DNA of 64,000 bases from Sphingobium arseniciresistens (GTDB lineage: Bacteria > Pseudomonadota > Alphaproteobacteria > Sphingomonadales > Sphingomonadaceae): positions 144,902 to 208,901 of the forward strand of contig JARFNK010000010.1 of the NCBI GenBank assembly GCA_029167225.1, written 5' to 3'. Positions 34,307 through 46,524 of this stretch are shown here, piece by piece (position 1 is the first letter of the stretch; every line of letters starts with the position of its first letter). The notes under the pieces were generated by a model. The model had not been told where the DNA came from. It saw only the letters and a list, made by a program, of their open reading frames with translations, and ran no database searches. A program made the translations under genes and the position numbers.

Positions 34307-36610
34307 ATGAAGAGCTATCAGACGACATTCAGCATCAAAAGGCTGTGGATCATCCTGTCGGTCGGCATGGTGGTCATGTTCGGTATCCTGCTGCTGCTCG
34401 GTCAGCAGATCTATCAGCAGGCCCCGCCCATCCCCGAAGCGGTTAAATCCCAAAGCGGCGAGACGATCTTCACGCGCGCCGATATCGAAGCTGGCCAAAA
34501 TGTCTGGCAGTCGATCGGTGGCATGCAGCAGGGTTCGATCTGGGGCCATGGCAGCTATCTGGCGCCCGACTGGAGCGCGGACTGGCTGCACCGGGAGGCG
34601 GAGACCTTGCTCGCTCTGTCCACCGCGCCGCTGCCAGCTGGCCTCTCCCCAGCGCAGACCGATGCCGTGCGAAAGGCCGCGCTGCAGGAAGAAATGCGCA
34701 GGAACAGCTATGATCCCGCGTCCGGGGTCATAGCTGTCAGCGACACCCGCGCGCGCGCTATCGGGCAGGTGCAGCAGCACTTCGTCAGCCTTTATGTGGG
34801 CAGTGACCCGACCTCGCTGAAGCTGCGTCGCGACTATGCTTTTCCGGTCTATGGCACATTGTCGGCCGCGGAAGCCCGGCAGCTTACCGCTTTCTATTTC
34901 TGGACCGCCTGGGGGGCGACCACGAACCGTCCGGGCCAGACCATTACCTATACCAGCAACTGGCCGCACGAGCCTCTGGTGGGCAACAGCCCGACCACCG
35001 GCACATTGTTGTGGAGCCTTGCTTCGGTCATCCTGCTGCTCGCCGCGGCCGGCGCGCTGATCGCATATTACGCCAAGCAGTTCGACGTCTGGCGCGGCGA
35101 CATCTTGCCCGAAGGCGGCATGGCGACTTCCGACCTTCTGGGACAGGCTGTCATCACACCATCGATGCGGGCTACGGCAAAATATTTCTGGGTCGTCTGC
35201 GCGCTGTTCGTGGGGCAGGTGCTGCTCGGCATCGTCACTGCCCACTATGCGGTCGAAGGGCAAGGTCTCTACGGGCTGCCGTTCGCCGAATATCTGCCCT
35301 ACACGATCACCCGCACATGGCACACGCAGCTCGCGGTGCTGTGGATCGCCACGGCCTGGCTGGCGACCGGGCTCTACGTCGGACCGATGCTCGGGGGACG
35401 CGACCCCAGGTTCCAGCGGTTCGGCGTCAATTTCCTGTTCGTCAGTCTACTCATCATCGTCATCGGCTCCTTTGCCGGGCAATGGGCGGCCGTCCACCGC
35501 TTCTTCACCAACCTGACAGCGAATTTCTGGTTCGGGCATCAGGGCTATGAATATGTCGATCTCGGCCGCTTCTGGCAGATTTATCTCCTGATAGGTCTGT
35601 TTCTGTGGGTGGCGCTGGTCGTGCGCGCGCTCTGGCCCGTCCTGCGGCGCGAGGGCGGCAAGTCGCTCATCTATCTCGTGCTGGTGTCGGCGCTGGCCAT
35701 CGGGCTGCTGTATGGCGCCGGGCTGATGTGGGGCCAGCATACCAACATCGCCGTGATGGAATATTGGCGCTGGTGGGTGGTCCATCTGTGGGTGGAAGGC
35801 ATCTTCGAAGTCTTCGCCACGGCCATCATCTCGCTGCTGTTCGTGCAGATGGGCATCCTGCGGACCTCGACCGCCACCGTGATGGTGCTGTTCGCGACGA
35901 TCATCTTCCTGTTCGGCGGGGTTCTCGGAACCTTCCACCACCTGTATTTCAGTGGCACGCCAACGTCGGTGATCGCGGTCGGCGCGATGATCTCGGCGCT
36001 GGAAGTGGTGCCACTGCTGGTGGTCGGGTTCGAAGCCTACACACGGCACAAGGTCGAGCATGAGGCCGAATGGGAACGGATCTATCACTGGCCGTTCATG
36101 TTCTTCGCCGCCGTCCTGTTCTGGAATCTGGTCGGCGCCGGACTGTTCGGCTTCCTGATCAACCCGCCGATCGCGCTCTATTACATGCAGGGGCTGAACA
36201 CGACGGCGAACCACGGCCATGCCGCACTGTTCGGTGTCTACGGCATGCTCGGCCTTGGGCTGACGCTCTATTGCATGCGGGGGCTGACCGACGTCACGCG
36301 GTGGAACCAGAAATGGATCAGGATATCCTTCTGGTCGCTCAATATTGGCCTGGCGATGATGACCTTCCTGTCGCTGCTTCCCCAGGGTATCCTGCAAACC
36401 TATGCCAGCATCGAACATGGCTATGCCTATGCCCGCTCGGCGGAGTTTATCCATAGCCCGATCATGCAAGCGCTGGTCTGGGCAAGGGTGCCCGGCGACA
36501 TCGTCTTCGCCATCGGTGTCTTCGCGTTCGCATGGTTCATGGTCCAGGCATTCATGTTCGGCAGGAGGCCCGGTCCAGAAACGGCCGCCGTTCCAAAACC
36601 AGTGCTTTAG
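34307..36610 (+). CDS. norZ: Quinol-dependent nitric oxide reductase (qNOR, single-subunit NorB/NorZ)
   Basis: 767 residues, the length of qNOR. It has an N-terminal helix and a large periplasmic cytochrome-c-like domain (about 40-215) that lacks haem-c Cys ligands as in qNOR, then a twelve-helix haem-copper oxidase-like core (about 225-760) with His-rich segments such as HTQLAVLWIATAW, HLWVEGIFEVFATAI and GTFHHLYFSGTP. It reduces 2 NO to N2O in the inner membrane with quinol. The start follows GAGGGG. It may have its own promoter in the 108-base gap after the cupin gene. Confidence 0.95.
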   Translation: MKSYQTTFSIKRLWIILSVGMVVMFGILLLLGQQIYQQAPPIPEAVKSQSGETIFTRADIEAGQNVWQSIGGMQQGSIWGHGSYLAPDWSADWLHREAETLLALSTAPLPAGLSPAQTDAVRKAALQEEMRRNSYDPASGVIAVSDTRARAIGQVQQHFVSLYVGSDPTSLKLRRDYAFPVYGTLSAAEARQLTAFYFWTAWGATTNRPGQTITYTSNWPHEPLVGNSPTTGTLLWSLASVILLLAAAGALIAYYAKQFDVWRGDILPEGGMATSDLLGQAVITPSMRATAKYFWVVCALFVGQVLLGIVTAHYAVEGQGLYGLPFAEYLPYTITRTWHTQLAVLWIATAWLATGLYVGPMLGGRDPRFQRFGVNFLFVSLLIIVIGSFAGQWAAVHRFFTNLTANFWFGHQGYEYVDLGRFWQIYLLIGLFLWVALVVRALWPVLRREGGKSLIYLVLVSALAIGLLYGAGLMWGQHTNIAVMEYWRWWVVHLWVEGIFEVFATAIISLLFVQMGILRTSTATVMVLFATIIFLFGGVLGTFHHLYFSGTPTSVIAVGAMISALEVVPLLVVGFEAYTRHKVEHEAEWERIYHWPFMFFAAVLFWNLVGAGLFGFLINPPIALYYMQGLNTTANHGHAALFGVYGMLGLGLTLYCMRGLTDVTRWNQKWIRISFWSLNIGLAMMTFLSLLPQGILQTYASIEHGYAYARSAEFIHSPIMQALVWARVPGDIVFAIGVFAFAWFMVQAFMFGRRPGPETAAVPKPVL

Positions 36611-37008
36611 ATCCGCCACTCCGCTCCCGACCGCACCTTGGATTTCAACGGAGAGTCGGCTAATTTCCGGCCTTGGTCGGGAGCGAATAGTGCCTTTTCG
36701 CCGTAAAGCGACTTCAGGATCGCCGGATAGCCTCGCCTGATAGAGCCTGCGGTCACTTCACGACCTTGCCTCTATCAGGGTCTCGGCGCCTCCCCAGCCG
36801 ACGCTTCCCAATATGCTATGGCTCCAAGTTTATCGCCACTGCCGTGCAGACTTGGCCCGCCCAGATCGGCGTGAAGACGCTCCACATCACGCCGCGCTGG
36901 CTTGATCCAGACGGGCGCATGCTGCCACGAATCGATGGTATGAAGCACTCCTCCCGACAGAGTAGCTCACATCGGTTCGACACCTTCGCCAGCCGAACTG
37001 CAAGGTTA
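36611..37008. other. 398-base gap with two inverted repeats, no gene
   Basis: Between norZ and the IS element I see no convincing gene. An 11-base inverted repeat CGCTCCCGACC (36622-36632) pairs with 36675-36685 across 42 bases, and a 10-base repeat CCTGATAGAG (36736-36745) pairs with 36770-36779. Either may end norZ transcription. The remaining frames look like noise or remnants of a gene broken by the IS. Confidence 0.5.
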
Positions 37009-37050
37009 GCGTCCGCGCTCGTGGTGTAATTTCTGGTGTAGATTGAGATG

Positions 37051-37086
37051 ATCGCATGGGGTGGGGCATGCCCCACCCCATGCGAT
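37051..37086. repeat. Perfect 36-bp palindrome inside the IS
   Basis: Positions 37051-37068 are the exact reverse complement of 37069-37086, with no loop. It sits between the left end and the transposase start (70 bases before it). It could form a hairpin in read-through RNA that hides the ribosome site, a known way for transposons to limit transposase made from outside promoters, or act as a protein site or terminator. Confidence 0.85.
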
Positions 37087-37155
37087 TTCGATCTCGGTGG
37101 CCACCGGGCTCATCGGTAAGGTGGAGTTACCACACTTCACACGCCCACCGAGGAG

Positions 37156-38376
37156 TTGATCCCGATGACCGACGACAGACTACCGCTTGCCGAGCTGATG
37201 GCGAAGACTGGAGATGGAGATTTCCTGCGCACGATCGCCGAGAGCGTATTACAGATCATCATGGAGGCCGACGTCGATGGCCTGGTCGGCGCTAGCCGAC
37301 ACGAGCGCTCCGGCGACCGGACGACCTGGCGGAACGGCTACCGCGACCGCAGCCTCGATACCCGGCTCGGCACGCTCAACCTGAGGATTCCCAAGCTACG
37401 GACCGGCGCCTACTTCCCTGGCTTCCTGGAACCCAGGAAGACCGTCGAGAAGGCGCTGGTCGCGGTGATCCAGGAGGCGTGGATCGCCGGCGTCAGCACC
37501 CGGCGTGTCGACGAGCTGGTGCAGGCCATGGGCATGACCGGCATCTCCAAATCCTCGGTGTCCAAGCTGTGCAAGGATATCGACGAACGTGTCCATGCCT
37601 TCCTTAAGCGGCCGCTCACCGGCGACTGGCCCTACCTCTGGCTCGATGCTACCTACCTCAAGGTGCGCGAGGGCGGGCGGATCGTCAGTGTCGCCGCGAT
37701 AATAGCCGTTGCCGTCAACACCGAGGGCAAGCGCGAAATCGTTGGCCTTCACATTGGACCCTCCGAAGCCGAGCCATTCTGGTCGAGCTTCCTCAAGGAC
37801 CTCGCACGCCGCGGACTGACCGGCGTGAAGCTGGTCATCTCCGATGCCCACGAGGGCCTCAAGGCAGCGATCACTCGCGTGCTCAGCGCCACCTGGCAGC
37901 GGTGCCGCGTCCACTTCATGCGCAATGCCCTGGCCTACGTGCCCAAGGGCCAGAACACCGTCGTCGCCGCTGCCATCCGCCAGGTCTTCCTCCAGCCCGA
38001 CCATGCCGCCGCGACACAGGTCTGGCGCCAGGTCGCCGACCAGTTGCGTACCCGCTGGCCAAAGCTCGGCGCCTGCATGGACGATGCCGAGCACGACGTG
38101 CTGGCCTACATGACCTTCCCCGAGCAGCACCGCGTCAAATTACATTCCACCAATCCACTGGAACGCCTGAACAAGGAAGTGAAGCGCCGCGCCGATGTCG
38201 TCGGCATCTTCCCGAACGAGGATAGCATCATCCGCCTCGTCGGCGCCGTCCTGCTGGAGCAGAATGACGAATACCAGCTCCAGCACCGCTACATGCAGAT
38301 CGAGGGCATGGCCGCCCTTGCTACACCAATGATCGAGGAGGCACAGCCGCTACAGATTACACCCAAGGCCGCCTGA
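37156..38376 (+). CDS. IS256/Mutator-family transposase
   Basis: 406 residues, the usual length. DDE motifs are visible: D in WLDATYLKVREGG, D in VISDAHEGLKAAI and E in NPLERLNKEVKRR, with the Cys/His-containing insertion RCRVHFMRNAL between the last two. The start lies within the IS; GTG/ATG (37156) gives an N-terminal ADVDGLVGASRHERS block typical of the family. It catalyses excision and insertion through an RNase H-like active site. The gene seems complete, so the element may be active. Confidence 0.95.
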   Translation: MIPMTDDRLPLAELMAKTGDGDFLRTIAESVLQIIMEADVDGLVGASRHERSGDRTTWRNGYRDRSLDTRLGTLNLRIPKLRTGAYFPGFLEPRKTVEKALVAVIQEAWIAGVSTRRVDELVQAMGMTGISKSSVSKLCKDIDERVHAFLKRPLTGDWPYLWLDATYLKVREGGRIVSVAAIIAVAVNTEGKREIVGLHIGPSEAEPFWSSFLKDLARRGLTGVKLVISDAHEGLKAAITRVLSATWQRCRVHFMRNALAYVPKGQNTVVAAAIRQVFLQPDHAAATQVWRQVADQLRTRWPKLGACMDDAEHDVLAYMTFPEQHRVKLHSTNPLERLNKEVKRRADVVGIFPNEDSIIRLVGAVLLEQNDEYQLQHRYMQIEGMAALATPMIEEAQPLQITPKAA

Positions 38377-39836
38377 AAATGCAGCCCGCTGGCCACACCC
38401 AATTCTACACCACATTGACGGACGCGACCACTGCAAGCCCAAGGCGGTAATTCCCCAAGGTCGATTAGCTCGGCCCGGACAAGGCCATCCAGAGCCTCGG
38501 GAAACATGCGGACCACAGCCCACCATACGACATGCCCCGGATCGATCTGGGTCTGCGCATCGCGGGCATTGCCGAGGATTTTCTGAAGGGAAGGACGGCC
38601 CAGCAAGTCGGCGAACGGCGTGTTCTCTACAAACGCCTGCAACAGGTTGGCGTACGGCAGAAAGTCCGCCCCGCTAAACTTGCTGTTCAGCATCGCCAGG
38701 AGGGCGCCATCGCCAGAATGGCGTGTGATATAAAGCGTGTCCGTCCCCTGTTCGGCACTGTGCGCCACTGAGCAGAAGATCGCGAACAGAGAGGCAAGAT
38801 GGGCTTGCGCCCGATCGGAATGGCTTGCCCAATAGTCGTCCTTCCATTTCGACAGGTCCGGAACCTGGCCGCAGATAGACGTCCATGCCGGGGCGAAGCG
38901 TTCGCTGTAGAATGGGGAGTTCGGCCTCTCTCGCTGTGCGTGCTGAAGCGCCTTCCACCAATGGTTGCGAACCTCTCGGCAGTAGGCAGTCAGCCGGTCG
39001 CTGCGTCGATCTTCCAGGAACACCGAACGTCCCGAAGCGGTATTGAGATCGTCGAGCCTGACAAGTCGGGGCTCGAGATACCCTCCCTGACCATCTTCGA
39101 GATAGCAGCTCAGGATAAGGGTGCCGCTATCGATGGAGGCTGACTGGGCGGCGTCATCGAACAGGAATGCGTTGCCCCTCTGCATCGTGATAACGTCGTG
39201 GAAGCCTTGAGGCAGCGGGCTTTCCAGTTCCCGGAAGATCCAGATCAGCCGCACTCCTTCGCGTTCGTAGTGCAGATGGCGGGCAGCGATCTCGGGGGCG
39301 AATGGTTTCGAGAGCTGGACTTCCAGGGCGAACCGGCCAAGCTCGCCCATGTCGAGAAAGACGTCCGGCCATCGGCCGCGCTGATGAATCGCCGGTCGCA
39401 GATAGGTGTCGACCGCCGACGCGGCACATCGCGGATCGGCTTTGGCCAAGGCCTCTATCGTCTGACACAGATGACGGTGGAGCGCGGATTCCTGGTGACC
39501 ATGATATTGTGCGGCGCGCGCCGCGTCGGGCGTCATTGTGCCGCCCTCGTGCCAGGGGCAGCCCTTGGGAGCCTCTGGAAAATGATAATAGAGGGGCATG
39601 TGATCGCCATCGGCAACCGCCTGTGCGCGAATGAAGACGCCGCCGCCGCAAATCCGGCATCGCGCGAGAGGGCGCGCGGGTTCGTCACGGCGCCGCAGGT
39701 TGATCTCGGTCCGCAGATGTTCCCACCGCTCGCGCGGCATAGCCATCAAGGCCTCGATCGATACCGCGCCGCGGGGCAGATCGAAATCGGCTATCCGGAT
39801 GGTGCGCTGCCGCTCAGACGACCGCATGGTGCCCAC
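38289..39836 (-). CDS. CoiA/DUF6035-like nuclease-family protein, C-terminus probably cut by the IS
   Basis: The open frame runs to a stop at 38289, but the last ~45 codons (from about 38425) are the right end of the IS256 element, so the native C-terminus is probably lost. The N-terminal ~75 residues carry a CRICGGGV zinc-like knuckle; residues ~170-195 (RWPDVFLDMGELGRFALEVQ) show the D-x-E-x-Q pattern of PD-(D/E)XK nucleases as in CoiA; the rest is unassigned, with CxxxxH-like segments. Resembles the DUF6035 family. It is the last gene of the leftward operon from 45024 and lies 31 bases after the 113-residue gene. Confidence 0.65.
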   Translation of the reverse strand: MGTMRSSERQRTIRIADFDLPRGAVSIEALMAMPRERWEHLRTEINLRRRDEPARPLARCRICGGGVFIRAQAVADGDHMPLYYHFPEAPKGCPWHEGGTMTPDAARAAQYHGHQESALHRHLCQTIEALAKADPRCAASAVDTYLRPAIHQRGRWPDVFLDMGELGRFALEVQLSKPFAPEIAARHLHYEREGVRLIWIFRELESPLPQGFHDVITMQRGNAFLFDDAAQSASIDSGTLILSCYLEDGQGGYLEPRLVRLDDLNTASGRSVFLEDRRSDRLTAYCREVRNHWWKALQHAQRERPNSPFYSERFAPAWTSICGQVPDLSKWKDDYWASHSDRAQAHLASLFAIFCSVAHSAEQGTDTLYITRHSGDGALLAMLNSKFSGADFLPYANLLQAFVENTPFADLLGRPSLQKILGNARDAQTQIDPGHVVWWAVVRMFPEALDGLVRAELIDLGELPPWACSGRVRQCGVELGVASGLHFQAALGVICSGCASSIIGVARAAMPSICM

Positions 39837-39867
39837 GTCCTTGCAGCTTCATGGGCATGTCCATGCC

Positions 39868-40209
39868 TCAGCGGCGATCGTAACGGTTGATCCGTGCCAG
39901 CGACAACAATCCGAGGGGATCGACGAGCAGGATTTTCTGGACGCCCGCCTCGGCCGCGCGCAACTTGGCCTTGTGCATGAGTTCAAGCGCCGGGAATTCG
40001 AAGCCACTGAGCTTGCGCGGAGCGGCGATCTCGGGTGTCACCGGCCCCGTGAGGTCCATCTCCAGTTCGGCGACGATGGATTGGACCGCGCCCCCGGGAC
40101 GGTCGACATAGACCGCGAAATAAGGCTCGCCATCGGCGATGGCTTGCTCATTGAGAACGATTTCGGCCAACAAACCCCCCATGTCACGATGAGAACTTTT
40201 ATAGAACAT
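39868..40209 (-). CDS. 113-residue protein of unknown function
   Basis: Residues 10-110 read as one compact alpha/beta domain (GGLLAEIVLNEQAIADGEPY, then FAVYVDRPGGAVQSIVAELE, and KILLVDPLGLLSLARINRYD at the end). No signal peptide, membrane helix or Cys motif. No family recognised. It follows the GNAT gene by 44 bases and precedes the CoiA-like gene by 31, so it belongs to the operon. Confidence 0.5.
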   Translation of the reverse strand: MFYKSSHRDMGGLLAEIVLNEQAIADGEPYFAVYVDRPGGAVQSIVAELEMDLTGPVTPEIAAPRKLSGFEFPALELMHKAKLRAAEAGVQKILLVDPLGLLSLARINRYDRR

Positions 40210-40253
40210 CGTGCCGCCCGCGCAACCCGGACAGTGCCGTACCGACTCGCCGA

Positions 40254-41003
40254 TCAGGCGCGCGGGTCACACGGTTCCACTGCGTCCACATAGAAAGCGC
40301 CGCCTTTCCAGTCGCGGACGACGCCAGATTCTTCGGCTTCCTCATATTTTGCTTTGGAGAAGCAACGAACCACGCCGTCCACTTCGATCTTGACGGCCAG
40401 ATCACGCCCTTCCGGTTCATCGTCGCACAGGCCGACGACCCGGCGTTCGAGCATGATGGTGCCATCGTCCAGGCGGCCGCCCCGAACCTGGTGGGCCGCG
40501 ATGGGTGGCGTTTCCTCGCGGCCATAGGTGGCGCGCTCAGGATAAAAGCTGATCACGACCTCTGCCGACGGCAGCTCCGGCGGAACGTCGAAGGTTCGCG
40601 TGAGCACGCGCCGGGCGGTCACCTTCGCAAACTCGCGCATGTCGCCGAAGCGCACGAAGCCGTGCCGCTGCCAGAACGTCCAGGAACTGCGCGGCGAACA
40701 TTCGATCGAGAGGACATTGATGCCATCGATCCTGGCGCGTTCGAGCGACGCGGCGAACAGCGCGTCGCCGAGGCCCTTGCGCCGCCAGTCCTTGCGGACA
40801 CTGACAATGTCCGCAGCATAAATTCCGACCTGGAACGCGACGGCTTCCCCACCCTTGCGAACCACCCAGAGGTCTTCCAGTTCGAGCGAGCGCTCGATGA
40901 TTGCACGATTGCACCAGAAACCATCGCCATCCTCGGCATGTTCCCGCTCGAGCCAACCCAGGACCGTCGTCAAATCCGACGCGGTCGCCTTTTCGATTTC
41001 CAA
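40254..41003 (-). CDS. GNAT-family N-acetyltransferase with C-terminal extension
   Basis: 249 residues. Residues ~1-140 form a GNAT domain; the acetyl-CoA motif is R-R-K-G-L-G-D-A (WRRKGLGDALFAASLERARI) and the beta4-helix segment AADIVSVRKDWRR precedes it, with FWQRHGFVRFGD closing the fold. The remaining ~110 residues are a separate, mostly beta region ending in DAVEPCDPRA. The acetylated substrate (protein, tRNA or small molecule) cannot be told. GNAT proteins are frequent effectors or modifiers in toxin-antitoxin and defence operons, which fits the company here. Confidence 0.8.
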   Translation of the reverse strand: MEIEKATASDLTTVLGWLEREHAEDGDGFWCNRAIIERSLELEDLWVVRKGGEAVAFQVGIYAADIVSVRKDWRRKGLGDALFAASLERARIDGINVLSIECSPRSSWTFWQRHGFVRFGDMREFAKVTARRVLTRTFDVPPELPSAEVVISFYPERATYGREETPPIAAHQVRGGRLDDGTIMLERRVVGLCDDEPEGRDLAVKIEVDGVVRCFSKAKYEEAEESGVVRDWKGGAFYVDAVEPCDPRA

Positions 41004-41054
41004 TTCTGTCTTCCTTCGCCTGGCGGTCCGGCAACCCGCTGACCTGTCGGGGGG

Positions 41055-42025
41055 TCAAGGTTTCTTTTTGGGCTTCGGTTTGGCCTTGGGCCTGCTGGAT
41101 TTCGCCTTCGCCGGGCTCTTGGCAGGTGCGGGCGTCGCCGCAGCAGCCCCGATATTCTCGCCGACCGTGCCGCCGGAGCGCGTCGTGGGCACTGCATCAA
41201 GTTCCTGAAGAGCGAGACGGCGCTCGAGGCGCACGCACATCCTGGTCATTTCGATCAGGATCGTGGCGTCCTTGGCAGTGACGGTGGGCGCGTTCGTGGC
41301 GCCGTGACCTGCCAGCGGCTCGACGTTCCGGCGGTTATAGGTCGCAAGGATGTAGTCCAGAAGGGGTTCGGGCAGCTCCGAGCGTTTGCGGTAGCCGTCG
41401 AACAGGCTGGCCAGGGTCTTGTTCTCGACGTTCGGATTGTTGAAGACCAGCTTCGCGAGCGTTTCGAAGATATTGGCGCTGGCGTGCAGGACGCCGGCAT
41501 AGTCCTTGGCCTCGAACGCTTGGTCCATCCGCTGCGACAGAATACGGATGTTGGGATGATCGGGATCGACATTCTCTTCCTCCAGTTCTGTCTCGGAGAG
41601 AATCGTAACCTCGATATCCTCGTCGAAGCCTTCGATCTTGAATCGGACCGAACTGTTGTCCTCGGCGAGGACCTTGTTGACCGACCACATGTCGAGCATC
41701 CCCTGCTGGACCATGTCCGCGAGGATTTCGACAAGCTGCACGGTGTCCGGCCGTCGCATGATGAGTTCGGTCTCGGCGATATGCCAACCGAACTCCTCGC
41801 TCATGTACATCCCCATGTCGTCGGGCTCGAGGCGGTAGATCGGAAGATCGAGAACCGTCCGCCCGACGTTGATGAAGTGTGATTGCGGTTGATGAGGCTG
41901 ACATTGTTGTCGTTGCTGGCGCAGCGCTTGCGCACCAACCGGGTCAGCTTGAGCCTCGCTTCGTTGGAAATGACCTCCGATTCGAGATTCTTCTTGTCTA
42001 CTTTCGAAAGACCCATGAAATACAC
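41055..42025 (-). pseudogene. Abi_C (abortive infection) family protein, frameshifted near 41874
   Basis: The gene starts at GTG 42025 (AAGGGG upstream; ATG 42016 is an alternative) and reads about 50 codons (MGLSKVDKKNLESEVISNEA ... LINRNH). At about 41870-41880 the frame changes: the downstream frame resumes with FINVGRTVLDLPIYRLEP and reads to 41055. One missing base explains it. The downstream part ends with an Abi_C domain (about HASANIFETLAKLVFNNPNV ... GHGATNAP ... LERRLAL) and a Lys/Pro/Ala-rich tail. Abi_C proteins contribute to phage-triggered growth arrest. It is either a pseudogene, a sequencing error, or a recoded gene. Confidence 0.7.
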
Positions 42026-42048
42026 CGCAGCACCCCTTCAGGCTGTTC

Positions 42049-45024
42049 CTACCGTTTGAGACGCACCCGCATACGGCGCGCGCGTTCACGGAACGCTTCC
42101 TCGCCGCCTTCGAGAATATCGCAGACCGCTTTCCGGATCGGTTCGTCCTCGAGTCCGCCAGCGGTATAGGTGATCGGCGGCAGGCCTCCGCTCTGGTGAG
42201 CACCACAATCAGCGATGATGATCTGGTCCGCATCCGTGTTGATGACGAGGTTGGCGTTGTGGGTCACCATGATGACCTGTCGCTTGGCCTTGGCCGCTAT
42301 GAACAGGGACACCAGTTCGTCGAACACGGATTTCGGGTCGAGATTCTCTTCGGGCTGATCGATGATGAGGGGCCGATCGTCACCATCGTCGAGGGCGAGA
42401 TAGAGCAGCAGCAGAACGATCCCGCGAGTGCCCGGCGACAGCTTCCGAATATCGACGCCGTCATAGGCAATCTCGTAGCGCACAGCGATGTGGTCTGTGC
42501 CGAACAGCCATTGCGCGAACTGCTTCGACCAGGCGCGGAAGTCGGCCTGCTGCGTCGGTGCGTAGGGCGCATGGACAAGGATGTCGCGCGTATAGGTGGC
42601 GATGAAGCCGGACATGGCCGCCTGCACATCGGCGGCGCTGCCCTGCTGCCACGCGGGTTTCAGGACTGTCTCGGCCACTTTGATCAAGGAACCACGTCCA
42701 TAGAAGGGACCGGCCTTGCGGCAATCGATCAAATGATCCTCCGCGACATTGCCCCAACCGGCGGCATCGACGATGCGGGTGACCGAGAAGCTGAGTTTCC
42801 GCAGCGTGCCGGAAGCGGCCGCTAGTTTGGCCATGAGCGGCGCGTACAGGCCCGCGAGCGCGGTCTGCTCGCTGATCACGGCCTGGAAGACACGGCCATA
42901 TGCGGCATCGCGTTCGCCTTGCAGCACCTTGCGGCGATCCGCCGCGCCCTGCGCGTCGGTCAGACGGGCTTCGACCCCCTGAAGCTCGCTATTCTCCTGG
43001 CCAATGCGGGCCGAGAGCGCCGTGTATTGGTTGCGGACGACCTGATCCGCGCTGATCAACTGCTCAAGGCGCGCCATCTCGGCCTTGACCAGCGCAAGCG
43101 GCAGGCTGGCTAGATCTACACCGTCACCGATCAGCGCGGTGTTCGGATTTCCGGGCGGCGGCGGCACGCCGTTCAGTGCGGCGATCTGCTGGTCGGCCCA
43201 GCGCACATAGCCTGACAGAGCGTTGTCGACATCGCCCTTGTAGATCAGCAGGAAATCCTCCCACTGCTTGCCATCAAGGCCGCTGGCCGGATGGCGTGCC
43301 TGTGCCTGACGTAACAACTCGGGGGCCTTGGTGGCCCGCATGCTGACCACCTCATCTTGCAGTGCCAGGAAAGTGCGGCGCTGATTAGCATAGGCTTGGA
43401 CCTTCGCGTCGATCGCCTGCGCCGCCTGGTTCAGTTGCCCGTGCCGCGCCGCTTGCGCTTCGGTGCCCTTGACGACGAGCTTGGCCAGATCTGCGGTGTA
43501 GCCAGCGATCAATACGCGCTTCTGTGCAGCTTGCCCCGTCAACGCGGTCACAAGCGCCTCTTTCTCGAATTCCTCGGCGATGCGATCTGAAATATCAGCG
43601 ATCGCCTCGGCTTCGCGCTGGCGAGCCTGTTGGAAGCGGACGGTGCGGCGCTCGCGCAACTGGACGAAATTCACTGCACCGTCACGTTGATCATAGGGGT
43701 GCGCCTCGAAGATGACGCGTTCGATCTCGCGGATCAGTCCCTCGGAGGCTCCTTTCGATGAGCAAAGCTCCTCGACGAACTGCTGCGAGAGATAGCGCGC
43801 TCGCGGAAAGGCGAGAGGGTCGTTGGCGTCGCGTCCGTCGAGGAAGCGACTGGTTTGCGTACCACCGCCCCAGGTCAACGTGGCCCGGGCGTTGCCGATG
43901 AGGGAACGCGCACGGACGAGGAAGGAAGGACTGATATTCTCGTCTGCCCTCCAGGCTGCCGGCGTGATCGCGTCGCATCCTGCGGCGATCATGTCGGCAA
44001 GCGCGGTCTTGCCCGAGCCGCGCGCGCCGATAATTGCCACCAGTCCGGGATTGAGCGGCACGACGGAGGTGGAGGCCCAGCTTCCGTCCGCTATCTCGAC
44101 CTGGGCTATCACTTGTGAGGGCATTGCCGTATGCGGCGGTTCGACACCGACATAGGCGCGACCATCAGGGTCGATGCAGGCTTGCCGCAGCGCATCGAAG
44201 GTCACCGCACCCTTGATCCAAGTGAAACGGTCGTGCGTCGGTTGGCCCACCGCCTGGTGATCGTGGGCATCACTGCCGTGAAGGCACGGCTTACAGCCGG
44301 CGTAATCTTCTCGGAGTTGGTCGGCGGAAAGTACCCCCTGGCCTAGCCAGAAGGCGCGATCCTTGGGGCTGCTCGTGAATATGATATGAGCGAACTTCTC
44401 GATCTCTTGACGCACAGTTGCGTCCGCAGCCTGCCGCAGCCCGGACGTACCATCATTACTCCCACCCGCCACTGCGACGAGAATGTTGTGCTTCGCCCAG
44501 TCATTGTCGCCCAGAACCTTGCGTAGCTGGGTGAAATTGACCTTGAACTGGGTCGCGCCATGGGCGAGCGCTGCGCGATCGTCGATAAGTGCGGGATTTG
44601 CGCGGCGACCGAGCCGGATCAGATCCGCTCGACTACAATCGAAATCATCGTCGAACGCATGGAATTGCAGCCTGGTGAGGATGCGCTTCACGGCGGCGAG
44701 ATGATCCGGATCCTCCGGGCTGACGAGAAGGTGGACATTCACGAAACCGGATTTGGCGGCCACATCGAGCCGGATCTCGATGTTTGGGAAGATCAGATCG
44801 ACGTTCGGGAGCCGATTGGCGGCCTTGTAGCCAAGAATCTGCTCGTAGGTGTCGGTGACATAGTAATCTGTCGCAGCGATGGCCTCAATGACGGGCGAGC
44901 GCGCCTCAAGCGCCGCGATATAGTCTCCCCACGGATCGGCCCCACCAAACTGGTTGTTGAGGACGGTTCCTGGCGCATGAATATGTGGCTCCCACCGACG
45001 CCACTCCGACCCCCTAGCAATCAT
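42049..45024 (-). CDS. TrlF-type PHP-SMC fusion ATPase
   Basis: 991 residues. The N-terminus is a PHP phosphoesterase-like domain (H14 and H16 in PHIHAPG, and HGSDAHD at 249-255). It is followed by an SMC/ABC ATPase half: Walker A GARGSGKT at 333-340, a long coiled region (about 425-800) and, near the C-terminus, a signature-like segment SPGTRGIVLLLLYLAL (about 864-880), Walker B LIIDQPEENLD (Asp 889) and the H-loop VTHN. This domain order matches the TrlF family; such proteins recur in phage-defence islands. It is the first gene of the leftward operon; GGAGAGG precedes its ATG. Confidence 0.9.
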   Translation of the reverse strand: MIARGSEWRRWEPHIHAPGTVLNNQFGGADPWGDYIAALEARSPVIEAIAATDYYVTDTYEQILGYKAANRLPNVDLIFPNIEIRLDVAAKSGFVNVHLLVSPEDPDHLAAVKRILTRLQFHAFDDDFDCSRADLIRLGRRANPALIDDRAALAHGATQFKVNFTQLRKVLGDNDWAKHNILVAVAGGSNDGTSGLRQAADATVRQEIEKFAHIIFTSSPKDRAFWLGQGVLSADQLREDYAGCKPCLHGSDAHDHQAVGQPTHDRFTWIKGAVTFDALRQACIDPDGRAYVGVEPPHTAMPSQVIAQVEIADGSWASTSVVPLNPGLVAIIGARGSGKTALADMIAAGCDAITPAAWRADENISPSFLVRARSLIGNARATLTWGGGTQTSRFLDGRDANDPLAFPRARYLSQQFVEELCSSKGASEGLIREIERVIFEAHPYDQRDGAVNFVQLRERRTVRFQQARQREAEAIADISDRIAEEFEKEALVTALTGQAAQKRVLIAGYTADLAKLVVKGTEAQAARHGQLNQAAQAIDAKVQAYANQRRTFLALQDEVVSMRATKAPELLRQAQARHPASGLDGKQWEDFLLIYKGDVDNALSGYVRWADQQIAALNGVPPPPGNPNTALIGDGVDLASLPLALVKAEMARLEQLISADQVVRNQYTALSARIGQENSELQGVEARLTDAQGAADRRKVLQGERDAAYGRVFQAVISEQTALAGLYAPLMAKLAAASGTLRKLSFSVTRIVDAAGWGNVAEDHLIDCRKAGPFYGRGSLIKVAETVLKPAWQQGSAADVQAAMSGFIATYTRDILVHAPYAPTQQADFRAWSKQFAQWLFGTDHIAVRYEIAYDGVDIRKLSPGTRGIVLLLLYLALDDGDDRPLIIDQPEENLDPKSVFDELVSLFIAAKAKRQVIMVTHNANLVINTDADQIIIADCGAHQSGGLPPITYTAGGLEDEPIRKAVCDILEGGEEAFRERARRMRVRLKR

Positions 45025-45544: not shown

Positions 45545-45594
45545 GGAGCCGATATGACCTGACCGACTGCGAGTGGCGCGCGATCGAACCGCTG
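45545..45594 (+). mobile_element. Fragment of an IS5-family transposase gene
   Basis: The bases translate as SRYDLTDCEWRAIEPL, matching the conserved N-terminus of IS5-family (IS1031/IS5-like) transposases, which usually begins near RYDLTDFEWR. The frame breaks at once on both sides, so only a short remnant remains. It marks an old insertion at the edge of the defence-like block. Confidence 0.55.
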
Positions 45595-45692
45595 GAGCAA
45601 TTCCGATCCGATTGCATCGGTTCGGCTGCTCTAAGCTTTTGGTTTACCGCATTTTCCGAGCCAGCAGCAGATTCCGTCTGCTTGGAAAATGC
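45595..45692. repeat. Two adjacent imperfect palindromes (intergenic repeat-like)
   Basis: The first (45595-45631) has arms GAGCA...CCGAT and ATCGG...TGCTC; the second (45649-45692) has arms GCATTTTCC and GGAAAATGC plus inner AGCAG/CTGCT. The words resemble short interspersed palindromes of alphaproteobacterial intergenic DNA. They lie just before the 3-prime end of the GntR gene and could act as a bidirectional terminator. Confidence 0.5.
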
Positions 45693-45703
45693 TCCAGAGC
45701 GGG

Positions 45704-46465
45704 TCAAGACTCCCCTTGTTCAACGACCAGATCGTAAGCGTCTCCGCGATAGTAGCACTCCGTCGCTTCGACGAGGCGACCATCCGGCAAGAAGGCGCGG
45801 CGTTCGATCGCAAGGCAAGGGTCGCCCTTGGAAATGCCGAGCATCTCGGCGTGCTCGGCACTGAACCCGATGGAACGCAACCTTTGAAGCGCTCGCACCG
45901 GTCGATGGCCGACGACATCCAGCGCTGCGTAAAGCGATTCATTGACGACGTCAGCAGAGGGGAGAGCCCATCCCGGCAGCATCGCCCGTTCGATCGCCAT
46001 GGTCTCACCGTCTGCGCAACGGATCCGGTGAAGTCGCAGGACGCGGGATCCCGGTGAGAGGCCCAGCAACATCGCTTCTTCCGGGGTTACGGCTCCTTCC
46101 GATCGATCGATCCATATATTGCCCGGCTTGCGTCCCCTGGACGCCATATCCTCGGAAAATGAGGACATGATCGAAAAGCTTTTTTCAACCCGGTGTTCGC
46201 CATCGGCACGGTTCGGTACGGCGACAAAAGTGCCTGCGCCCTGCCGTCGCTCCAGGAGTCCTTCGTCGACCAGCCCGTCAATAGCCTTACGGACGGTCAC
46301 ACGCGAAACGCCGTACTCTTCAACCAGTTCGCGTTCGGCCGGCAAGGCGGCCCCCGCTGCGATACGATGCGTATCGACCGCTTCCCGGATGAGGCGCTGA
46401 AGGCGCATGTAACGGGGTCCCGTGTCGTTTTCGACAAGCGGACCTATCTTACTCGCGGCGGTCAT
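45704..46465 (-). CDS. GntR-family regulator with UTRA domain
   Basis: 253 residues from ATG 46465 (MTAASKIGPLVENDTG); 18 further upstream codons look non-coding. The N-terminal winged helix has RYMRLQRLIREAVDTHRIAA, LPAERELVEEYGVSRVTVRK and GLLERRQGAGTFVA, the GntR/HutC pattern. The C-terminal half is a UTRA ligand-binding domain (ESLYAALDVVGHRPVRALQR, LGISKGDPCLAIERRAFLPD, ATECYYRGDAYDL). UTRA GntR proteins such as NagR sense amino-sugar phosphates, which fits the neighbouring TonB receptor and amino-sugar enzymes. It may repress itself and the receptor gene. The 3-prime end faces the repeat at 45595-45692. Confidence 0.9.
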   Translation of the reverse strand: MTAASKIGPLVENDTGPRYMRLQRLIREAVDTHRIAAGAALPAERELVEEYGVSRVTVRKAIDGLVDEGLLERRQGAGTFVAVPNRADGEHRVEKSFSIMSSFSEDMASRGRKPGNIWIDRSEGAVTPEEAMLLGLSPGSRVLRLHRIRCADGETMAIERAMLPGWALPSADVVNESLYAALDVVGHRPVRALQRLRSIGFSAEHAEMLGISKGDPCLAIERRAFLPDGRLVEATECYYRGDAYDLVVEQGES

Positions 46466-46524
46466 AGCTTTCCTCTTCGCGTCAGCGATACGCCGAGACC
46501 ACGACAATGTGAATATCATTTAGT

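Follow-up and report, generated by a model that had tools for sequence, protein, structure and literature searches.

Five defence-type genes at a variable Sphingobium site: probably a composite cluster rather than one system

When five genes with defence-type domains lie closely packed on one strand, do they constitute one anti-phage system? This question is raised by a locus of Sphingobium arseniciresistens within a stretch of 64,000 nucleotides of contig JARFNK010000010.1 (assembly GCA_029167225.1, positions 144,902 to 208,901; hereafter the window, whose own numbering is used throughout). Its five leftward genes, numbered here from right to left, encode a TrlF family protein (a PHP domain joined to an SMC/Rad50-like ATPase), an Abi_C/HEPN-like protein, a GNAT-type acetyltransferase, a 113-residue protein and a CoiA-like protein. 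The original prediction, made from the sequence alone, had read them as one operon encoding an unusual system. Our results point instead to a composite cluster whose defence-type genes move independently of one another; in it, TrlF would have no fixed partner, genes 2 and 3 would be separate accessory genes, and genes 4 and 5 would belong to a second, modular unit. We consider this reading probable, and favour a picture of the cluster as a pile-up of defence genes worn by insertion sequences (IS).

The evidence that carries this answer comes from other TrlF loci. We compared 26 of them, 13 on plasmids and 13 genomic (two from a search of contig collections, 11 from genomes), the plasmid loci being drawn from 42 plasmid records with TrlF coverage of at least 80%. 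Each of the 26 matches extends over 926 residues or more; frames are broken in L043, L099 and possibly further loci, and L100 shares just 26% identity. The fetched stretches mostly reach 5-9 kb per side, with L098 beginning 285 bases before the match and L080 and L141 short on one side, and the counts leave out L078 (the same 84,850-base plasmid as L037), the partial matches G016 and G678, and weaker rows. Relatives of genes 2 to 5 were found in none of the 26 fetched stretches (E 0.001, with relatives of each gene added as queries). Conserved synteny was the check proposed with the original prediction; the five genes were not found together elsewhere, and the claim that they form one system falls with that result. 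Likewise, the viewed loci of gene 2 (three of seven plasmid records, in varied surroundings) and of gene 3 (three of 14 plasmid records) lacked the other four genes, and only genes 4 and 5 were found paired elsewhere. The 26-locus comparison thus shows that, in this cluster, close spacing and domains of defence type did not add up to a system.

Judged from these neighbourhoods, TrlF usually occurs without a fixed partner. Across the 13 plasmid loci examined its neighbours mostly differ from locus to locus; one plasmid carries it beside a restriction-modification pair and another near a CBASS cyclase. Its distribution is sporadic: among the order's 395 other genomes, nine match 90% or more of the protein. 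It emerges as a widespread, often plasmid-borne PHP-ATPase. Viral contigs held no relatives of three of the cluster query proteins (P0001, P0002 and P0005).

The layout of the cluster was largely as predicted. Five minus-strand open reading frames (ORFs) lie at the expected place (Table 1), the CoiA-like one running from 39836 to 38289. The predicted gaps of 44 and 31 bases stood, while those given as 24 and 52 measured 23 (32 if gene 2 starts at ATG) and 51. The presence of defence-like ingredients was also supported; among the individual labels, PHP-SMC, GNAT and, narrowly, CoiA hold, while Abi_C was not significant. A scan of the cluster gave four terminator-like sites against 5.5 expected from shuffles and one promoter-like site against 1.8 expected, and Rfam found no match between 36500 and 46600. 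It is possible that the five genes share a single transcript.

The TrlF protein meets its family model, NCBIfam NF045780, over residues 4-985 at 682.3 bits (cut-off 350). Thirteen aligned TrlF proteins, including that of the window, share invariant H14, H16, E83, H98, D252 and H254 in the N-terminal part and G333, G336, S337, K339, S863-G865, D889-E892 and H922 in the ATPase part, which we take to be the PHP ligands and the Walker A, signature, Walker B and H-loop elements, respectively. Because the Pfam PHP model found no match in the 991-aa protein, the PHP assignment rests on the family match and these residues. By sequence, the solved relatives are Rad50, SMC, AriA and an ABC transporter, each through its ATPase part, and profile searches for the TrlF, CoiA-like and Abi_C-like proteins gave no convincing full-length solved relative. 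Most likely TrlF would act alone, like Ppl (polymerase/histidinol phosphatase-like), a single-gene anti-phage system. From its family and residues we infer that the Rad50/SMC-type ATPase head could sense a state of DNA or protein linked to phage, and that the ATPase would license cleavage of a phosphate-ester substrate by the PHP metal centre at the N-terminus; a role in phage defence is predicted on the same grounds.

The second gene is split between two frames. High third-position GC changes frame near 41870-41885, marking 35 of 44 codons in the upstream frame and 47 of 56 codons in the other frame downstream, and a Rhodococcus relative aligns significantly to the second piece only; the protein is probably not made at full length. 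We did not retain Abi_C as a firm label: Pfam Abi_C (PF14355) had no match in the window protein at E 0.05, and three scanned relatives scored 14.4 bits, 13.3 bits and nothing, below the gathering cut-off of 24. A motif of the form RN...GHG is invariant in four aligned proteins (R182, N183 and H190, with seven residues between R and H). The catalytic motif of HEPN ribonucleases is R-x4-6-H, and the spacing here is presumably longer than the usual HEPN pattern. The motif suggests a putative HEPN-type ribonuclease. Relatives occur in seven plasmid records (E 0.01), at 33-42% identity over parts of the length, and none was found in phage records. A match to the Abi_C-like protein P0002 in one of 395 other genomes of the order (G042) was weak and fell mostly in the out-of-frame part, and was counted as chance. 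Relatives of the GNAT protein were found in 14 plasmid records, 12 of them at coverage of at least 80% and all below 60% identity.

Genes 4 and 5 are the only members of the cluster that we found together elsewhere. In G056 the pair lies 16 bases apart at 63% (113-residue protein) and 74% (CoiA-like protein) identity, and in G217 54 bases apart at 53% and 62%. Searching 249 family genomes with the 113-residue protein (P0004) returned, besides the window's own, only G345 (56%), where it is separated by some 5 kb from a remote CoiA-like gene. Genes of WYL-type and SbcCD appearance lie between the two, and an AbiH-like gene (85 bits) flanks the CoiA-like gene on the far side; plasmid records held no relatives of this protein. 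P0004 and P0007, the two small genes seen ahead of CoiA-like genes, could not be aligned with each other. The CoiA-like ORF passes CoiA_nuc (PF06054) at 21.0 bits against a gathering score of 20.3. Among five scanned relatives, two pass this model (23.0 and 25.1) and three fail it (16.7 to 18.7), and two of the five pass DUF6035 (PF19500), a name that turned up in a single paper of the open-access literature covered, on a sugar pathway. Residues C60, C63, H85, C93, P157, D158, E172, Q174 and S176 are invariant in 13 aligned CoiA-like proteins including the window's; P157, D158, E172 and Q174 are residues of the PD-(D/E)XK type, and the Cys/His residues among them may form something like a zinc ribbon.

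Beyond the window we collected 19 CoiA-like loci, leaving out short or partial matches, and ran PADLOC on chosen neighbours in 11 of them (L039, L048, L049, L050, L076, L077, L113-L116, L120, L125; for G345, L139 beside L122). At least six of the 19 have a scanned neighbour above 150 bits, a count of chosen neighbours with no control rate: SIR2-HerA (L076), a PD-Lambda-3_B protein (L077), GajA-GajB (L115), IetS-IetA (L114), AbiEii (L048) and a reverse transcriptase (L125). The G056 pair heads five same-strand genes that end in SIR2 (876 bits) and HerA (1281 bits). On L115:743-6135 the CoiA-like gene lies 104 bases behind GajA (861 bits) and GajB (732 bits) on the same strand; IetS (387 bits) and IetA (279 bits) adjoin it on L114; AbiEii (230 bits) and the reverse transcriptase (168 bits) lie 1.8 kb and 0.8 kb away. 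The genome of the window has another CoiA-like copy, on contig C80, which is followed by the PD-Lambda-3_B protein (267 bits). The family occurs next to or near six kinds of defence gene, and some of its members have a small partner gene of their own. Should this hold against a proper control, it would make the family a candidate accessory part of several known systems.

The CoiA-like genes could not be assigned to a system known to PADLOC, seven scanned proteins giving no match even at E 10; identity with PD-Lambda-3_A is therefore not established, though a neighbour matches PD-Lambda-3_B. A trio of small gene, CoiA-like gene and TIGR02391-type gene was seen both on contig C80 (L077:117-2861), where the last is the PD-Lambda-3_B gene, and on a Sphingobium plasmid (L039:5649-7985); the two small genes are 70% alike. 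Remote CoiA/DUF6035-type genes on L113, L121 and L122 adjoin a WYL-type-looking regulator (29 bits on L113, the others by eye), with SbcCD-like genes, also by eye, alongside on L121 and L122.

Insertion has marked the left end of the cluster. The IS256 copy predicted there was borne out by its transposase match and by aligned copies, and the CoiA-like ORF (38289-39836) overlaps its transposase gene. Other genomes have IS copies that match the last 46 codons of the ORF (residues 470-515), which places the end of the native part at about 38430 at the latest. Of seven CoiA-like relatives, five stop no more than about 15 residues from the break point, one is longer and one shorter, and L117 is longer too; given these ends, little native sequence is probably missing. 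The IS256 copy would end the gene near its last native codons, any later genes having been lost or never present. Together with the frame switch in gene 2, this leaves two of the five genes damaged. No direct repeat of at least five bases flanks the element in the range tried, which fits a later rearrangement without proving one. At the right border, a dispersed repeat of about 105 bases (45592-45698) has many matches in the same-genus genomes G949 and G957, mostly 75-87% identical.

The predicted variability of the site is supported by one comparison. The left-flank gene, which we take to be norB-like, was found at 95% identity only in G957 (on a 5.2-Mb contig) among 17 same-genus genomes searched; G949 has matches at 42% and 36%. 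Over the 19.9 kb compared, 89% nucleotide similarity between G957 and the window stops at 36741, 131 bases after this gene, and beyond it G957 carries PADLOC candidate-defence genes of its own, PDC-M41B-like (331 bits) and PDC-M30A-like (73.5 bits; L130:14029-16127). The end of the match and the other candidate defence genes in G957 indicate that the site is variable.

Table 1. Features of the cluster and its surroundings, in window coordinates.
Feature	Position	Strand	Evidence
TrlF family PHP + SMC/Rad50-like ATPase (991 aa), full-length and with intact motifs (gene 1)	42049..45024	-	NF045780 and invariant residues
Abi_C/HEPN-like gene, split between two frames, switch near 41870-41885 (gene 2)	41055..42025	-	Relatives, RN...GHG, third-position GC
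GNAT-type acetyltransferase with extra C-terminal region, 249 aa (gene 3)	40254..41003	-	Acetyltransf_7 32.6 bits, cut-off 27
113-residue protein (P0004), seen with CoiA-like genes elsewhere (gene 4)	39868..40209	-	Relatives in three other genomes (63%, 53%, 56%), in two immediately ahead of a CoiA-like gene
CoiA-like protein, native part of ORF: PD...ExQxS nuclease-like core and C-terminal region (gene 5)	38430..39836	-	CoiA_nuc and invariant residues
CoiA-like ORF, run-on into IS256 sequence	38289..38429	-	Residues 470-515 match IS copies
IS256-type element of the Mutator family, with approximate ends; transposase at 37156-38376	37004..38430	+	Transposase_mut 418 bits; ends from aligned copies
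norB-like gene, left flank of variable site	34307..36610	+	95% protein identity in G957
GntR/UTRA regulator, right flank	45704..46519	-	UTRA 123.6 bits, GntR 71.7 bits

Several observations weigh against the composite reading. Tight same-strand packing could mean co-transcription and a joint function specific to this lineage. TrlF, a TauD/TfdA-like gene, a hypothetical gene and a GIY-YIG gene stand in the same order on an Agrobacterium plasmid (L033:6001-11145) and a Paracoccus plasmid (L145:5001-10127), and in two genera TrlF is followed by a gene of about 300 residues, similar by eye (L097:9017-9937 and L098:3171-4175); it is a possible TrlF partner, with no Pfam match for either copy and no PADLOC match for that of L097. 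The G056 and G217 pairs were found via the CoiA-like gene; only G345 is independent, and there the genes lie about 5 kb apart. The nearness of CoiA-like and defence genes rests on chosen neighbours, as said, and eight scanned neighbours had no PADLOC match (L048:5400, L049:1680, L050:2459, L076:7928, L076:9959, L116:2022 and two of L120), while three matched only weakly (P0007 at 14.7, L049:2744 at 24.9 and L113:6319 at 29.4 bits). TrlF, moreover, takes its name from the Photorhabdus temperature restriction locus trlR-trlF-trlG, the one trlF locus with a published phenotype that we came across, where deletion of the whole operon allowed host growth at 36 degrees C and mutations fell in trlG and none in trlF, according to the accessible part of that study (PMC7554251). 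No phage experiment on TrlF was found in the open-access literature, a coverage outside which most subscription journals fall.

The alternatives were weighed against the same observations. That all five genes form one anti-phage operon, in which TrlF would be the sensor-ATPase, Abi_C the killer, GNAT the modifier and the CoiA-like protein the nuclease, would account for their common strand, gaps of 23-51 bases and defence-type domains; the lack of shared synteny in the 26 TrlF loci, the two damaged genes and the occurrence of viewed relatives of genes 2 and 3 without the others make it highly improbable. Alternatively, TrlF could serve a stress or temperature response, the cluster being unrelated to phages. 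The name and the deletion phenotype of the Photorhabdus locus speak for this, but its mutations lay outside trlF, none of eight scanned window proteins (among them the cluster, the IS transposase and GntR) matched the TrlG domains AlbA_2 and HATPase_c_4 at E 0.05, and TrlF sits on many plasmids, including the two where it has defence genes for neighbours; we regard this explanation as unlikely. Genes 4 and 5 might also be plasmid or transposon housekeeping genes, for DNA uptake or repair, that are found in islands by chance. CoiA is a competence protein by name, CoiA-like relatives also lie near SbcCD, WYL-type regulator and ParB-like genes (several of these labels read from sequence), and many scanned neighbours lack a PADLOC match. 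That CoiA-like genes adjoin SIR2-HerA, GajAB, IetAS and the PD-Lambda-3_B protein on the same strand argues against it, as does a CoiA domain in an E. coli defence system validated by experiment, described in the accessible part of PMC9519451, and we give housekeeping a modest chance of being right. Within the composite reading, the 113-residue and CoiA-like genes are placed in a second unit whose relatives precede or follow known defence genes. That the two proteins form an exchangeable module (a sensor, DNA-end processor or licensing factor) serving SIR2-HerA, Gabija, IetAS and the PD-Lambda-3_B protein, and captured beside TrlF here, is a doubtful extension of it; if true, bacterial immune systems that are otherwise unrelated would have this module in common.

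Set beside named systems, the window's TrlF protein matches the TrlF family, to which Photorhabdus trlF gave the name, over the full length and with conserved motifs, but differs in context from trlR-trlF-trlG, as no trlG-like gene was seen among the scanned window proteins and TrlF neighbours vary by locus. Ppl, which in the accessible text of PMC13152194 is a PHP domain followed by an ATPase domain and a defence system without a described mechanism, shares this domain order with the window TrlF, and its C-terminal ATPase end matches at 120 bits; PADLOC gives Ppl 106 bits. TrlF reaches, however, only 119.8 bits against the NF042955 cut-off of 1000, with the best score confined to the C-terminal end. 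The ATPase C-terminus also resembles AriA of PARIS (41 bits in PADLOC, 24.5 bits to solved AriA chains); unlike PARIS, TrlF has a PHP part instead, and no AriB match was seen among the five cluster proteins (for TrlF, among the best 25 of 38 families).

The Abi_C-like protein resembles HEPN/Abi_C proteins in the RN...GHG motif of the four aligned proteins and in the weak Abi_C matches of two relatives, but it stays below the cut-off and its gene is broken here. The window's CoiA-like protein has the same nuclease-like core as CoiA_nuc and DUF6035 proteins, and differs from them in an extra N-terminal Cys/His region, a long C-terminal region and the 113-residue partner gene; as a module, it is a part of the cluster outside any named system. 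Although the window cluster has neither a SIR2 nor a HerA gene, the relatives of genes 4 and 5 in G056 stand at the head of a run ending in SIR2-HerA, a defence that one paper names Nezha.

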